Below are positions 2,741 through 63,375 of a stretch of DNA of 64,000 nucleotides, piece by piece; within the stretch, counting starts at the first letter, position 1, and every line of letters starts with the position of its first letter. The stretch is from the IMG/VR virus record IMGVR_UViG_3300008267_000039, positions 1 to 64,000 of that record, one strand, 5' to 3'. The translations under genes and the position numbers were made by a program. The notes under the pieces are model-generated. The model was not told the DNA's origin and did no database searches. It saw nothing but the letters and a program-made list of their open reading frames with translations. This DNA comes from a virus.

Positions 2741-3325
2741 ATGATCAATCCAACCACCATCACCAACTACGACCGCAACCAAAGGGAACTGGAAGAATTT
2801 CTTATGTTCGCCATTATGGTTGCAGGAAAATCCGCCAAGCAAACCGCACAAAAATTGAATCTGTTTTTATCCAAAAGGGAAAACAATGAATCCCCCCTTG
2901 AATATGTAGATGCTCTACTACATGAGGAATTAGGTATCAATCTCGAACAGGCAATGCGAAATGTCCGCCTTGGGCAATATGGCAGACTCAAAAAAGCATT
3001 TGCTGGTATTCTCCAATTCCAAGGTCATCTGCATGAAGTCTCTGTGGAGGATTTGGAAAGCATTTATGGTATCTCTAGTAAAACATCGAGGTTTTTCCTC
3101 TTGCATTCAAGGCCCGATCAAAGATTGGCAGTATTGGATACCCATTTGCTTGCCCACATGAGAGAAGATTTGGGAATGGATGTTCCAAAATCAACCCCAA
3201 ATAAAAACAAATACAAGGTATTGGAACAAAAACTTTTGAAGGTTATAGATGAAAGTGGAAAGACCTTTGCGGAATATGATTTAGATGTTTGGAAATCTAG
3301 ATCACAAAAACTTAGCACCCTTTGA
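2741..3325 (+). CDS. HhH-GPD DNA glycosylase-like protein
   Basis: Probable base-excision enzyme of the helix-hairpin-helix GPD superfamily (endonuclease III / 8-oxoguanine glycosylase type). What is seen: a helix-hairpin-helix-like stretch at residues ~105-120 (LESIYGISSKTSRFFLL) with Lys114, followed by VLDTH containing Asp133. The spacing fits the family's catalytic Lys and Asp. At 194 aa it is near the short archaeal/phage forms. There is no iron-sulfur Cys cluster. It is translationally coupled to the 51-aa gene. Its last 24 nt overlap the end of the convergent HNH gene, so the HNH insertion may have replaced its original tail. The substrate is not known. Confidence 0.65.
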   Translation: MINPTTITNYDRNQRELEEFLMFAIMVAGKSAKQTAQKLNLFLSKRENNESPLEYVDALLHEELGINLEQAMRNVRLGQYGRLKKAFAGILQFQGHLHEVSVEDLESIYGISSKTSRFFLLHSRPDQRLAVLDTHLLAHMREDLGMDVPKSTPNKNKYKVLEQKLLKVIDESGKTFAEYDLDVWKSRSQKLSTL

Positions 3326-3979
3326 GCAATTTTCAGATGCCCATAATGGTTGTAAATTAGTGTAATGGAAACATTTTTCAATTTCAGTAATATTTGAAAA
3401 ATCAAATAATGCACAAGGCTTTATATGGTCAATGTGCCATTCACCATAATTATCCCAACTCATTCCCTTTTTAAATTTTAATTCTAAATACTTTTTAAGT
3501 GTAATCATATCACATCCAAGCATTTTTAATGTTTTTGGTTTAATATTAAAGGAATTAATTGATTTTAAACACCTCCAAAGTCTTTTCGATAAATTTCTCC
3601 TCATTCGATATGCTACATCATGTTTTCTTTTATTGTGATAATTAATTCTTTTCTTTCTAGTGTATTCGATTCGTTGATTAGCCTTTTCCTTTAATTTATC
3701 CTTATTTTCCAATCTGTATTTTTTATTATATTCTTTCATGTATGATTTTTTATCCCATTTTAAATCATCTGAAACTCTTTTATTATCGGCTTGACATTTC
3801 CTGCAACCATGACCCATAAGATGACTATTCGCCTCCTGCGCAAACTCTCCATGTTTTTTACAAATTATAGTAACTTTGTTTTTAGATAATGTGTAATTCG
3901 TTTTTGAGTAATCATATTTTTCACCATGACATATAATGGCATCTTTAATAAAATCTTCTGTATATTTTTTTAAACTCAT
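3302..3979 (-). CDS. HNH homing endonuclease with DUF723-type domain
   Basis: The N-terminal ~60 residues (FIKDAIICHGEKYDYSKTNY then HGEFAQ...GHGCRKC) match the DUF723-type DNA-binding domain found with phage homing endonucleases. A Lys/Arg-rich linker follows, and the C-terminal HNH core reads WHIDHIKPCALFDF ... NLQPLWASEN. The start at 3979 is chosen over the upstream codons to 4054 because TATAAATAA lies 4 nt before it. It is the only minus-strand gene in the early block and the only one there with a late promoter. Both facts point to a mobile insert. Confidence 0.8.
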   Translation of the reverse strand: MSLKKYTEDFIKDAIICHGEKYDYSKTNYTLSKNKVTIICKKHGEFAQEANSHLMGHGCRKCQADNKRVSDDLKWDKKSYMKEYNKKYRLENKDKLKEKANQRIEYTRKKRINYHNKRKHDVAYRMRRNLSKRLWRCLKSINSFNIKPKTLKMLGCDMITLKKYLELKFKKGMSWDNYGEWHIDHIKPCALFDFSNITEIEKCFHYTNLQPLWASENCSKGAKFL

Positions 3980-3983
3980 ATAA

Positions 3984-3992
3984 TTATTTATA
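3984..3992 (-). promoter_or_regulatory. T4-type late promoter of the HNH gene
   Basis: TATAAATAA on the minus strand. The last A of the TATAAATA box is 5 nt from the ATG. Confidence 0.7.
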
Positions 3993-4047
3993 CAAAGAAC
4001 CGAAAACTCTTTGTTTCTTTTTTCAACAATATTCTCAAAAATAAATC

Positions 4048-4076
4048 TCGACATTTCAATTCAATTAGAATACCAT
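4048..4076 (+). promoter_or_regulatory. Early promoter
   Basis: TCGACA, 17-nt spacer, TACCAT, behind a CAAAAATAAATC element. The predicted start falls at the base of the hairpin at 4084. Confidence 0.5.
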
Positions 4077-8439: not shown

Positions 8440-8775
8440 ATGCTCTCAAAGATTAAGGACATTATTCAAGGTAAGGCTTCTCTTTCCTCTCCTTCCAGAT
8501 CTTCCAAATGGCCAAAGGTTAGAAAAAAACATCTGGAAAAAAATCCATGTTGTGCATTATGTGGAGCTACAAGCAAATTAAACGTCCACCACATAAAACC
8601 TTATCATTTGTTTCCTGAACTTGAACTAGAAGAGAGTAACCTAATTACCTTATGTGAGAACAAAAAGAAGGGAATCAACTGCCATTTGTTTATTGGGCAT
8701 CTTGGGAATTACAAGAATATAAACCCATGCTCCGTGCAAGATGCGGTCACATGGAATTGTAAACTTAAAAGTTAA
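8440..8775 (+). CDS. HNH endonuclease (111 aa)
   Basis: Compact HNH nuclease: KNPCCALCGATSKLNVHHIK holds the first Cys pair and the HH motif, ESNLITLCENKKKGINCHLF supplies the Asn and the second Cys/His set. The N-terminal 35 residues are basic (SKWPKVRKKHLEKN). This size and layout are common in free-standing phage HNH enzymes that act in packaging or as mobile nucleases; neither role is shown here. Its 3' end overlaps the convergent ASCH gene by 11 nt. Confidence 0.8.
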   Translation: MLSKIKDIIQGKASLSSPSRSSKWPKVRKKHLEKNPCCALCGATSKLNVHHIKPYHLFPELELEESNLITLCENKKKGINCHLFIGHLGNYKNINPCSVQDAVTWNCKLKS

Positions 8776-15016: not shown

Positions 15017-16153
15017 TTAATTTATAGATCCCGACCAGAATGCTTTTTCATTCTGCATTGTATATAATGTTTTATTTGGGACTTTGATTTGGGTGATTGT
15101 GTTGCTTTGAGTTTCTATTTTTTCAATTTGAAGGAATCTTTTGTCCAAGTGGATGTTTTTTGTTGTGGCGATTGAGAGGAAATAGAGAGGTGCGCAGTTT
15201 TCAGCTTTTATAACCCTACCCTTTATTAAAAAATCTTTTTTAGGGATATGCATGTGCATATTTCCGCAACCGCCTGATTTTAATAATACTTCGTTGAAAT
15301 CTAACATCAATTGTTTGGACGTGGAGAAAATATCACGTTTACAATATGTTCCACAGTTTTGAGTGATTTTGCTAAATCTACCATCACCTAAATTATACCA
15401 ATACACCATTTCATTTAAAAGATTAGAAGAAAGGTTTTTAAATTCTTTTGGAATTCTTTTATTATAACAAATTGTTCCAAAATTTTCTCTCAATAATTTA
15501 CATAATCTAAAATCTTTTAAATAAAAGGTCGTTTTATCCATATCTTCACTTCTTTCTCTCCATTTCATTTCTTTTGGAAATCTCAAAAGCATTTCTCTTA
15601 TTTGATTTTTCACATCCTCTTTCTTTTGACATATAAAAACACCAGAATCATTTCCTTTATCTGTCCACCCTTCCGCAAGCCATATTCCCAAAAATTGTGC
15701 AAATGTTTTATAGTCAATATCTGTATCAATTTCCGGATCAATTAAATAATTTCCCTTTTTGGGAACATTTTTAAGTCCTTTTAATGTATAAAATTCTGGA
15801 CTTTTTACATTCCATAAACCGGATTTAGGAATATGGGAATGACTGTATTTTGTTCTATCGTTATAAATCTCTTCTATTGTTAGAAAATCTTGTTTATCAT
15901 ATCTATGTAAAACTAAAAATTTCTGATCAGGATTAAGAATAGTATTTATATTTCTACCTTTTATGCGAAAAACATATCCATTATGTGTTATTTCTTGCTT
16001 TTCTTGGACTTGTTGAATTTCTATTTCTTTGGTATTTGGATTTAATGTATAAACATTTTCACCTTTTTGAATATCTCTAGCATCTTTCCAACCTTCTTCG
16101 GAAAGAATTAAGGGAAAAATTGAAAATGATTCTATAGTTGGGTAATGCAGCAT
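15017..16153 (-). CDS. Orphan intein-like protein with LAGLIDADG endonuclease
   Basis: 378 aa. Residues 9-31 (SFSIFPLILSEEGWKDARDI) look like intein block A with Ser at position 1, and 70-82 (NTILNPDQKFLVL) like block B. Two dodecapeptide motifs, FAQFLGIWLAEG (151-162) and NEMVYWYNLGDG (247-258), mark a LAGLIDADG endonuclease. The end KAFWSGSIN resembles block G, finishing on Asn followed directly by the stop. So a whole intein is present with an 8-residue N-extein and no C-extein. It has its own late promoter. It may be a free-standing homing enzyme that escaped a host gene. Confidence 0.75.
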   Translation of the reverse strand: MLHYPTIESFSIFPLILSEEGWKDARDIQKGENVYTLNPNTKEIEIQQVQEKQEITHNGYVFRIKGRNINTILNPDQKFLVLHRYDKQDFLTIEEIYNDRTKYSHSHIPKSGLWNVKSPEFYTLKGLKNVPKKGNYLIDPEIDTDIDYKTFAQFLGIWLAEGWTDKGNDSGVFICQKKEDVKNQIREMLLRFPKEMKWRERSEDMDKTTFYLKDFRLCKLLRENFGTICYNKRIPKEFKNLSSNLLNEMVYWYNLGDGRFSKITQNCGTYCKRDIFSTSKQLMLDFNEVLLKSGGCGNMHMHIPKKDFLIKGRVIKAENCAPLYFLSIATTKNIHLDKRFLQIEKIETQSNTITQIKVPNKTLYTMQNEKAFWSGSIN

Positions 16154-57536: not shown

Positions 57537-57545
57537 CTATTTATT
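57537..57545 (-). promoter_or_regulatory. T4-type late promoter
   Basis: AATAAATAG, 5 nt before the ATG at 57531. Confidence 0.65.
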
Positions 57546-59736
57546 AAAAATTATAATCCTTCGTGAAAACATCCCAACCATCTTTTTTCAGGATTTCGTA
57601 ATCCGGTATGTTGGAAAATTCGTCTTTTATTCCAATCGGATCACTAAAAACAGTTGGAAGTGGCATAAATGCCTGACCATCTTTTTCGTTGACATATATA
57701 TTACTCGGAGAAACAATGTCAGTAATTCCATAATCTATTGGTTTTATTTTAAGGGGTCTCTGATTGTCATCCATTGCAATCATCTCATAATATCTTTTGC
57801 AGATATCGTTGAGAAAAACGGCAGTTGCCCAGACAAGGGCCATAACCCTGTCATCTAAAGTATTTGCTGTTCTACCACTCCACGTTCCATTTGGGTGTCG
57901 AATGAAGTCCTTGATTTCATTTAGGGTTTTAATATCCCTTATTTTGATACTTCTCATTTCGTTGAGAAAATATCTCATATTTGTAACGGCTTCGATTTTT
58001 GAATTGAAGTGGCTAACAATACCTGCCTTGTTGTTGACTTTGAATTCATTTGCAACAACACCTCTTGTTCCCCAAGTTACGACATTTTCATAACCATAGT
58101 TCATTTTTAAAGAATCGATAACTTGTGCTCCACATCCGTTTCTTTCAACGAGAACTGGCGGTCTTCCCCATTGTTGTAGGAGATCGTGTAATTTTTGGGC
58201 GAAATAATATGGAGATATTTTCTTTGTATAATAGACCGCATCTTGTGTGATGTTTGTAAGGTCTGTGATGTTTAGAATCTGACATACTGTGGCATTTTGA
58301 TTCAATCCCTCTCCTACGTCCACACCAATAACATAGTGACATTTTTCATTTGGTTCATCCCATACCACATATTGACCATCATCGAAAACATATTCTGGGT
58401 CTTTGCATCCAGATTCAAGCATTTTATAAACATCCTCGTCAATTGGAATTTCACCAGATGCTAAGAATGCATTTTCGAATTCTTGTGCAAAAAGTTCTCT
58501 TGAACCAATCGTTCTCATGGTTTCTGCTTTCCATTTTTCGTCTCTATTTGGAACTTCCCACCAATCCACTCTTTCTGGATGCCATCCATTCCAACCATCT
58601 CCTTTTTTATTGGAATCTTCCCAAAGGTTGTGAAAAAGATTTCCTATGCCTTTTGGTGTGGATGCGACAAGAATTTTGGATTTTTTTGCAGATGAAATAA
58701 TTGGATAAACTGATGCCCAGAAATCGGATAATAATCCGCTGTCAATATGCGCAATTTCATCAACCACAAGCACATTTACAGATTCGCCACGACCCGCATC
58801 ACTACTTGTTGTTGAAATACCAATAGAAGAGCCATTGGAAAGCATGATATTTGTTTGACCATATTCCACAGCACCAGCCTTAATAAAATTTGGCATCATT
58901 TCAAATGCTGTTTTAATTCTTTTGAGAATCATTTTTGCAGTTTGTTCCTTGTTTGCGACAACAAGAATTCTTTGATCTTCTTCAAAAAGAGCAACCCAAA
59001 GAGCATAAATTGTCATCAAAGTTGTGTTTGATGTTGCAATGTTTGTTTTTCCACAGAGAAATAAACTATCCTTGGAATCCACAGTAATGCAACGGACTGG
59101 AACGGATTCCACTTCTTTAATGGAAACAATATTATCAAAATCCCTTTGTTCCGGATTCAATTCAGTGTTTTTACATCTTGGAATTTTGTGGAATATTTTA
59201 CTATCCACAATTTCTTGTGTGGTTTTAACAGAACCTGAATTTTCTTTTTCTGAAATTGTAAACCAACGATGATCCGCATCTGCAACAATCTTTTCTCCAT
59301 TTTCAAATTCTATTTCGTAACATTTTCTATCATGTAAAATATCATGGGCTTTGACAACATTACAGGGATTTCCATCGAGACCAAAAACAACATCTCCGTC
59401 TTTTAATTCTCCCATTGTTGTCCAACCGTTTGGGGTTTTAATTGGAGTATCCAGTGCCAATGCTTTTCCTATCTGTCTAGAAGCCAACAAAATGTTGAAT
59501 CTATTTTCGCTCAATGCCTTCAAAATTCTTTTTTGAAACTTGTGTAATTTAATTTTCTGTCTACCTTCATCCACATTGATGATATAAAAGTAATTGCTTG
59601 CAAAGTGTAGAATATTTTTTCTACATTTCGCAATCTCCTTGATCATATCAGGAGTGTAATCGTATTCCGTCTGTGCTGTGGGAAGGTTTGTATTCCCCAA
59701 ATAAAATTTTTCTTTTGGACCTTTTTTTGCTGCCAT
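57544..59736 (-). CDS. 17: Terminase large subunit gp17 containing an intein
   Basis: 730 aa; 584 after splicing (T4: 610). The ATPase Walker A reads SRQIGK-[intein]-TTLMTIY, split between Lys91 and Thr238. Walker B is VNVLVVDEIAHID. The nuclease domain has IGVDVGEGLNQNATV, PVLVERNGCGAQVID and NTLDDRVMALVWA with the acidic residues. gp17 cuts concatemers and drives DNA into the prohead. It must be spliced to be active, because the intein separates the P-loop Lys from the Thr that binds magnesium. Confidence 0.95.
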   Translation of the reverse strand: MAAKKGPKEKFYLGNTNLPTAQTEYDYTPDMIKEIAKCRKNILHFASNYFYIINVDEGRQKIKLHKFQKRILKALSENRFNILLASRQIGKALALDTPIKTPNGWTTMGELKDGDVVFGLDGNPCNVVKAHDILHDRKCYEIEFENGEKIVADADHRWFTISEKENSGSVKTTQEIVDSKIFHKIPRCKNTELNPEQRDFDNIVSIKEVESVPVRCITVDSKDSLFLCGKTNIATSNTTLMTIYALWVALFEEDQRILVVANKEQTAKMILKRIKTAFEMMPNFIKAGAVEYGQTNIMLSNGSSIGISTTSSDAGRGESVNVLVVDEIAHIDSGLLSDFWASVYPIISSAKKSKILVASTPKGIGNLFHNLWEDSNKKGDGWNGWHPERVDWWEVPNRDEKWKAETMRTIGSRELFAQEFENAFLASGEIPIDEDVYKMLESGCKDPEYVFDDGQYVVWDEPNEKCHYVIGVDVGEGLNQNATVCQILNITDLTNITQDAVYYTKKISPYYFAQKLHDLLQQWGRPPVLVERNGCGAQVIDSLKMNYGYENVVTWGTRGVVANEFKVNNKAGIVSHFNSKIEAVTNMRYFLNEMRSIKIRDIKTLNEIKDFIRHPNGTWSGRTANTLDDRVMALVWATAVFLNDICKRYYEMIAMDDNQRPLKIKPIDYGITDIVSPSNIYVNEKDGQAFMPLPTVFSDPIGIKDEFSNIPDYEILKKDGWDVFTKDYNF
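59026..59463 (-). mobile_element. Class 3 mini-intein in gp17
   Basis: 146 codons (protein residues 92-237). It begins ALALDTPIKTPNGWTTMGEL without a Cys1 and ends NIATSN, followed by Thr. The WCT set that defines class 3 inteins is seen: Trp67 (ADADHRW), Cys125 (VPVRC) and Thr144 (IATSN). These positions nearly equal those in the mycobacteriophage Bethlehem DnaB intein. There is no endonuclease domain. Confidence 0.9.
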
Positions 59737-61810: not shown

Positions 61811-63367
61811 TTATTGGGGAATTAGTTCGTATTTTAAACTTCCACAGTCGTAGATTCTCTTGTATCCATTCATTACCATATTTTCTCTTTCAGATAATGC
61901 GGGGTCGAAGTTTTCAAGTTTCTCTGCCAAGAATTGTTTTGCAAATGCAAACCTGTGGAATCTTTTTCTACAAGTTTTATCCACATACCAATAATTAACA
62001 TCTGTTTTTTTAACAAGATTAAAATTAAGCCTCTCATATAATTCACCATTTGACCATCTTCTATCACAAAAGCTCATTACTTTTTTTGGTGCATAATTCT
62101 TGATAAAACGAGATAATAGTTTCTGTGCTCCACCATTTATTGTAACATTTCCCATAGAACAAAATCTGGTCAATTCGTATTCACCTTCTTGTAGGTTTTG
62201 GCCAAGTGCTTTTCTGGATTTGGAAAATGTCATAACAGATAGAAGTCTTTTTCCTTTGAACAATCCAAGTCTAATAGATGCGATATCTGCACCCTGTAGA
62301 TGGTATTTGTTTAGGAATTTGGATGATGTTTCGTGACTAATTGGTTCAATGTGACAATCTCTTGCATTTACTCTTACTTTATTAAGTCCAAAAATACTCC
62401 TCAATCTATTTTCAACTTGTCTTGGTTTTGATTCAATTTCATCTTCAAATATGTGAATTAATTTTATTCCCAATTCTAGGCACATTTCAGTCTTCATAAG
62501 ATGATATCCTTTATCCTTTTTTTCATCACTGTGCCAATGTAAACCATTACATTCTATTGCAATATTATGTGAAGGAATTTTAAAATCCAACTCGAATTTT
62601 TTCAATGTCATTTTGTCTCTTTTTATATGTGCGATACCATATCTTTTTAGAAAATCCTCAACAAAGACTTCAATGCTTGTTCCGCTTTTATCGCACAACT
62701 TACATCTTATATCGTAATTATTGTTAAGCCAGTGAAGGAAAATATTTCCACAATTTTTACACTTCCATTCGTATTTTGGACCGTAATCATGTGCTCCTTT
62801 ATATTCATCAAATGTAAACAATGGAATGAGCTTATTATATCGATTTGGAAGATTGCTGAAATATCTTTTCTTAATAGCGAGTCCTGTTTTATCTCCAACA
62901 TATGGTCTTACGATATCGCCATTTTTTAACCTTTCTTTATACTCATCCGTTTTGCAATAATTATCCACACCATATTTCGTCAAATTGGTTTGTTTAATCT
63001 TTTCCATTCCATACTTTGATGCAAATACATTCTCTGCTCCATATTTTTCCAAATTGGTTTTTGATGCTTTTTCTTTAATGTGATCATTGTCAGCAAATCT
63101 GCAAGGATTACTACAATATGTTTGAAATCTCAATTCCGTTGGATTAAATTTAACATCTTTTCCGCACATTTTACATACTGGTTTTTCTAGAATATCATTT
63201 ATATAACAGAAAACTTTTAATGAAAAAGGTTCGGTTATCCAAGGAATGGTTGATTCGATTAATTCATATGCTTCTTTTCCGAAGTTTTCTATAAACATTT
63301 TAGGTTTAAGAAACCGTGTTGTGCCTTTGTATTTTTCGTTTAGAAATGTGATTATTTTTTCTTTCAT
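61811..63367 (-). CDS. Free-standing homing endonuclease (Vsr/EDxHD-like nuclease)
   Basis: 518 aa. The N-terminus has a zinc finger (VCKMCGKDVKF ... YCSNPCR) and repeats of the 'K.TNLEKYG..NV' kind (residues ~104-150) found in phage homing endonucleases. A second zinc finger WKCKNCGNIF...IRCKLC follows at ~202-226. The nuclease core is FELDFKIPSHNIAIECNGLH, then WHSDEKKDKGYHLMKTEMCL and GIKLIHIFEDE (residues ~258-310). The C-terminus (~320-518) probably binds DNA. The ATG at 63367 is preferred over the TTG at 63373. It lies downstream of gp23, a common homing target neighbourhood. Confidence 0.8.
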   Translation of the reverse strand: MKEKIITFLNEKYKGTTRFLKPKMFIENFGKEAYELIESTIPWITEPFSLKVFCYINDILEKPVCKMCGKDVKFNPTELRFQTYCSNPCRFADNDHIKEKASKTNLEKYGAENVFASKYGMEKIKQTNLTKYGVDNYCKTDEYKERLKNGDIVRPYVGDKTGLAIKKRYFSNLPNRYNKLIPLFTFDEYKGAHDYGPKYEWKCKNCGNIFLHWLNNNYDIRCKLCDKSGTSIEVFVEDFLKRYGIAHIKRDKMTLKKFELDFKIPSHNIAIECNGLHWHSDEKKDKGYHLMKTEMCLELGIKLIHIFEDEIESKPRQVENRLRSIFGLNKVRVNARDCHIEPISHETSSKFLNKYHLQGADIASIRLGLFKGKRLLSVMTFSKSRKALGQNLQEGEYELTRFCSMGNVTINGGAQKLLSRFIKNYAPKKVMSFCDRRWSNGELYERLNFNLVKKTDVNYWYVDKTCRKRFHRFAFAKQFLAEKLENFDPALSERENMVMNGYKRIYDCGSLKYELIPQ

Positions 63368-63375
63368 ACACAACT

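Follow-up and report, generated by a model that had tools for sequence, protein, structure and literature searches.

A class 3 mini-intein in the Walker A motif of a T4-type large terminase, and empty, mini and full-size alleles of the same site in related phages

The gp17 gene and its insertion

The window analysed here comprises the first 64,000 nucleotides of the 64,060-base IMG/VR virus record IMGVR_UViG_3300008267_000039. It contains the large terminase gene of a T4-type phage (gp17) as a single open reading frame of 730 amino acids, which matches Pfam Terminase_6N and Terminase_6C as well as terminase families of the phrog collection (Table 1). Residues 92–237 of this frame are an insertion between the Lys and the Thr of the Walker A motif (SRQIGK^TT). 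An earlier note on this DNA, made from the letters alone, had proposed such a split of Walker A; the upstream residue is indeed the Lys of LLASRQIGK, Thr+1 follows downstream, and the boundaries given there proved exact to the base. Removal of the insert in silico yields a protein of 584 amino acids that aligns without gaps across the P-loop with T4 gp17 (SRQIGKTT vs SRQLGKTT) and matches 3ezk (T4 gp17) with a phmmer value of 9e-54. A second, uninterrupted gp17 had been named as a finding that would speak against the proposal; none was found in the 64,060-base record, which holds this one gp17 only and is possibly a fragment.

Table 1. Features of the gp17 locus and free-standing genes considered in the text, in window positions
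Feature	Position	Strand	Remarks
gp17 open reading frame, 730 aa	57544-59736	-	
N-extein, residues 1-91, up to ...LLASRQIGK (Walker A as far as Lys)	59464-59736	-	
Class 3 mini-intein, 146 aa	59026-59463	-	
C-extein, 493 residues and stop	57544-59025	-	First residue Thr+1 (59023-59025)
Ala1 (block A position 1, no nucleophile)	59461-59463	-	Ala in 54/59 relatives
His65 (block B:10)	59269-59271	-	59/59 relatives; aligned with MchDnaB1 His65 (PMC7664689)
Trp67 (block B:12, W of WCT)	59263-59265	-	59/59 relatives; aligned with MchDnaB1 Trp67
Linker, residues 96-111, where the LAGLIDADG domain was lost	59131-59178	-	By comparison with full-size inteins of L003-L006, L010, L014, L019, L020
Cys125 (block F:4, C of WCT, predicted first nucleophile)	59089-59091	-	59/59 relatives; aligned with MchDnaB1 Cys124
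Thr144 (block G:5, T of WCT)	59032-59034	-	58/59 relatives; aligned with MchDnaB1 Thr143
Ser145 (block G:6, replaces usual penultimate His)	59029-59031	-	Ser 16/59, His 43/59
Asn146 (block G:7)	59026-59028	-	59/59 relatives
Endonuclease VII/HNH-like ORF	3302-4054	-	
Short HNH protein ORF	8440-8775	+	
Hint-like and LAGLIDADG protein, no exteins	15017-16153	-	Adjoins prohead protease gene
EDxHD/Vsr-like homing endonuclease	61811-63373	-	phrog_3339, E 8e-110; beside gp23

Class assignment and predicted fold

Taken alone, the insert gives full-length matches to MchDnaB1 and MsmDnaB1, class 3 inteins with crystal structures (6rix, 6riy, 6bs8; phmmer E ~1e-26), and the next-ranked matches are class 1 gp41-1 intein entries at 6e-05 and 0.0016. 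Because this insertion recurs at that codon boundary in many independent contigs as well, chance can be ruled out. Position 1 holds no Cys, Ser or Thr; Trp at B:12, Cys at F:4 and Thr at G:5 are all present, as are His65 at B:10, Asn146 at G:7 and Thr at +1. The active site of MchDnaB1 consists of Cys124, His65, Thr143 and Trp67 (PMC7664689), and His65, Trp67, Cys125 and Thr144 of the insert fall one to one on these residues, that is, within blocks B, F and G and not outside them. Ala1, Trp67, Cys125, Thr144 and Ser145-Asn146 before Thr+1 were thus identified correctly in the earlier note, and its class 3 call is upheld by this alignment of the WCT triad and by conservation in 59 relatives. 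These are distinct inteins from viral contigs that were found partly via conserved stretches of the window intein, which makes them relatives and not a random sample; their C-terminal ends were located by a motif search requiring the block F Cys and the final Asn.

The same alignment bears on a class 2 route, in which Thr+1 would attack directly and the WCT residues would be incidental. Ala1 would be compatible with class 2 as well, but the three WCT positions are all filled and are kept in 58–59 of the 59 relatives. On this conservation the class 2 mechanism was rejected, and hardly any credence is left for it.

A penultimate His at G:6, typical of inteins although not defining, is absent, and Ser145 stands in its place. 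Lack of conservation and loss of the penultimate His have been reported for phage inteins (PMC5050341). Ser145 could slow Asn cyclisation, although 16 of the 59 relatives also have Ser at this position.

With only 6 rows in the alignment, AlphaFold gave a weak model of the intein (pLDDT 73.6); a 42-row alignment raised the pLDDT to 96.3. The predicted model has the HINT fold, and its best structural matches are class 3 DnaB inteins (6bs8 of M. smegmatis: Z 22.4, rmsd 1.2, 125/125 residues). Membership in class 3 nevertheless rests on sequence and not on this structural comparison; structure alone does not give the class, because several class 1 inteins outrank the AceL NrdHF intein, which belongs to class 3.

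Purifying selection and proposed splicing

Compared with its closest mini-intein, that of contig L002, the window intein shows a dS of 0.46 and a dN of 0.034 (dN/dS 0.074), close to the dN/dS of 0.035 and 0.054 of the exteins in the same pair. About 12 of the 43 changes between the two inteins are nonsynonymous, where ~79% would be expected without selection (binomial P 8e-13). The intein is under purifying selection. This result bears on the idea of a dead insertion. The contrasting published case is the intein of Arthrobacter Arth_1007, reported to be a pseudogene (PMC3196547). Ser at G:6 and the missing endonuclease would fit such decay. However, selection on the intein itself is strong, the catalytic residues are all intact, and the P-loop that the insertion interrupts belongs to a gene that is normally essential. 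A dead insertion was rejected on dN/dS and appears extremely improbable.

Given this purifying selection, the intein almost certainly splices. Continued splicing is the natural explanation because the insert parts the P-loop Lys from the Thr in a normally essential ATPase, and it is a sound inference that packaging would be fully dependent on splicing. For the chemistry, we infer from the conserved residues that the HINT domain would fold within the gp17 precursor and that the Lys-Ala bond would be attacked by Cys125, aided by His65 and Thr144, after which the N-extein would be held as an internal thioester. The N-extein would then pass to Thr+1, and cyclisation of Asn146 would free the intein. 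The exteins would rejoin as an intact Walker A (SRQIGKTT), and the packaging ATPase would be active only after splicing.

Allelic states and loss of the endonuclease

The 146-amino-acid intein lacks an endonuclease domain, whereas its full-size relatives carry LAGLIDADG. This comparison bears out the claim that it is a mini-intein with no endonuclease; having no homing endonuclease of its own, it is not a homing intein. Among relatives from viral contigs, the gp17 site is empty in L007, L008, L009, L013, L015 and L017, whereas a mini form of 140–146 amino acids is present in the window, L002 and L016, and a full-size LAGLIDADG form of 342–354 amino acids in L003–L006, L010, L014, L019 and L020. 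The linker that replaces the endonuclease is common to the three minis, and these form one clade in a tree of the 59 inteins (support 98/93), with support of only 85/82 in a DNA tree. Mini forms overall require at least four separate changes on the 59-intein tree; the three further losses are seen in L028, L031 and L037, with different junctions. The endonuclease has thus been lost at least four times at the gp17 site. The mini-intein of the window would be a deletion derivative of a full-size intein with LAGLIDADG at that site, and in spite of having no endonuclease it would be kept, since any imprecise removal would destroy the P-loop.

The empty alleles also bear on a conditional form of splicing, set by redox state or temperature, through which the intein would hold back packaging, by analogy with a proposal made for its homologue in M. 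smegmatis DnaB. One of the nearest relatives with a solved structure has been reported as a sensor of oxidative stress (PMC6195587), Cys48 is kept in 57 of the 59 relatives, and for phage inteins a modulatory effect has been ascribed to loss of the penultimate His (PMC5050341). Cys34, Cys97 and Cys137, however, are variable among the relatives, and the occurrence of empty alleles in close relatives makes a required regulatory role unlikely. Such a switch is considered improbable here.

Recombination and gp17 mosaicism

Empty, mini and full alleles are intermingled in a tree of the exteins (7 changes vs 7.4 with shuffled labels). The tree rejects a clade of the window, L002 and L016 (p-AU 0.0018) and one of the window and L002 (p-AU 2e-40); it averages over a mosaic gene, and this conflict indicates recombination but not its direction or trigger. 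The window and L002 are closer to each other at synonymous sites of the intein than at those of the exteins (Fisher P 0.0015). The mosaic structure of gp17 is apparent in the window copy: one stretch of its exteins is near-identical to L003, and other stretches are near-identical to L010. A tract of 137 nucleotides with one difference to L010, a full-size allele, spans the N-junction into the intein, against a divergence of ~10% overall between the window and L010. By contrast, L004 and L014 share nearly the same full-size intein (dS 0.039), while their exteins have diverged further (0.18–0.34), a pattern that is the mark of recent homing or conversion.

Occurrence of the mini lineage in several gp17 backgrounds is consistent with ordinary recombination, and because gp17 is mosaic and the trees conflict, homologous recombination would be sufficient for movement of the mini allele; the intein would pass between phages by homologous recombination through gp17. 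Taken together, the 146-amino-acid segment is very probably a functional cis-splicing class 3 mini-intein that arose from a full-size ancestor by deletion and was moved by homologous recombination.

A further reading, put forward tentatively and rated as possible though doubtful, is that the mini-intein might serve as a transmissible resistance allele. It would fill GK^T and so remove the target of the LAGLIDADG enzyme of co-infecting full-size alleles, and it would spread in the phage population by homologous recombination, to which cuts made by those enzymes in empty alleles might contribute.

Free-standing nucleases of the window

Several free-standing genes of the window encode nuclease-like proteins (Table 1). 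The Hint-like and LAGLIDADG protein has near full-length relatives, at 31–34% identity, in Nitratidesulfovibrio phage SRB7757 and in a huge uncultured phage. The C-terminus of the EDxHD protein shows a Mom-like match (Pfam E 9e-6, just under the cut-off). The gene for the latter is present in L004, L014, L015, L019 and L020, whose gp17 is full or empty, and was not found in L002 (mini) nor in L007, L013 and L017 (empty); its presence is independent of the gp17 intein state.

The earlier note had suggested that LAGLIDADG and HNH enzymes of the window could act in trans on the intein. In such collaborative homing, the LAGLIDADG, endonuclease VII-like or EDxHD enzymes would cut intein-less gp17 and so mobilise the mini-intein. 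Arrangements of this kind are known in phages (PMC10448857), and the EDxHD gene lies ~2 kb from gp17. Against this, the orphan LAGLIDADG protein is only marginally similar to the LAGLIDADG form of the gp17 intein (E 0.011 in a single pairwise comparison, with the top score over the Hint part), and the EDxHD gene neighbours gp23 and not gp17, with an occurrence unlinked to intein state. A target resembling the gp17 junction was not found elsewhere in the window. With marginal similarity, no recurring target and no co-occurrence of the EDxHD gene, the suggestion of trans action found no support and is regarded as very unlikely.

Relation to known inteins

The closest characterised systems are the mycobacterial class 3 DnaB mini-inteins MchDnaB1 (145 amino acids, 6rix/6riy) and MsmDnaB-1 (139 amino acids, 6bs8). 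They share with the window intein its size, fold, WCT residues and His65, have no endonuclease, are ~40% identical to it and are inserted after the Lys of a P-loop GK, in MsmDnaB-1 at GVGK before Ser (PMC5222942). They differ in their host protein, a helicase, and in having Ser at +1 and a penultimate His, where the window intein has a terminase, Thr and Ser. The TerL1-a inteins of mycobacteriophages (PMC5050341) likewise interrupt the P-loop of a phage large terminase between Lys and Thr, although that terminase is of the terminase_1 family, whereas the window intein resides in a T4-type gp17 and has no endonuclease. At the same site of T4-type TerL, inteins with class 3 residues occur in gp17 of Escherichia phage ECD7 (Krischvirus), Synechococcus phage B23 and Klebsiella phage fENko-Kae01, with ~50–55% identity to the window intein in the splicing domain; unlike it, they are full-size and carry a LAGLIDADG endonuclease and a penultimate His. 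Closer still are the full-size inteins of L003, L010 and L014, which have the same site, ~75% identity in the splicing domain and a penultimate Ser as in the window, together with a LAGLIDADG endonuclease of ~210 amino acids that is missing in the window.

K^T insertions in the P-loop of terminases have been called classic (PMC5050341), and class 3 mini-inteins have already been characterised (PMC5222942). LAGLIDADG motifs were reported in 82.5% of 1701 surveyed class 3 inteins (PMC7891396); the remaining ones are presumably mostly small. Class 3 inteins at this gp17 site exist in deposited genomes (e.g., ECD7 and B23), often unlabelled. Insertions at K^T, TerL inteins, class 3 mini-inteins and a penultimate Ser are therefore already published, and the window intein itself is one more case in a large, well-known family. 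What is new is the occurrence of an empty site, a mini form of the 146-amino-acid type or a LAGLIDADG form of 342–354 amino acids at one site in close relatives. This three-state polymorphism is less usual than the window intein, as are the split inteins with nuclease reading frames at other gp17 sites in relatives (below). The allele set within one uncultured T4-like phage group comes close to a snapshot of the homing cycle predicted by theory, and raises the question of what lets endonuclease-free inteins persist: drift, recombination or a block on homing.

Apparent split inteins at other gp17 sites

In L014 (6492–7700), L015, L016 and L017, gp17 is broken near Walker B by an apparent naturally split intein. 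Its N-half follows ..DEIAHIE and its C-half has a start ATG of its own; between them lies a nuclease reading frame with a Tn7 TnsA-like domain (Pfam E 7e-8, L014 tested). The same intein is unbroken in L010 and L013. Both this split intein and the one in Walker A are present in L014 and L016, where gp17 would require two splicing events, one in cis and one in trans.

Another split-intein site, ..N^C or similar, lies just before Walker B in L031 (5813–8282), L047 (3412–5910), L073 (6239–9444), L077 and L011. In L031 and L047 the gap contains an apparent GIY-YIG-type reading frame, recognised by eye (YIYQITNLINGKIYIGIHK); L073 has an EDxHD-type frame there. Later in gp17, L049, L082 and L093 have a split-intein site at ..EF[NE]^C, with no reading frame between the halves in L082 and one in L049.
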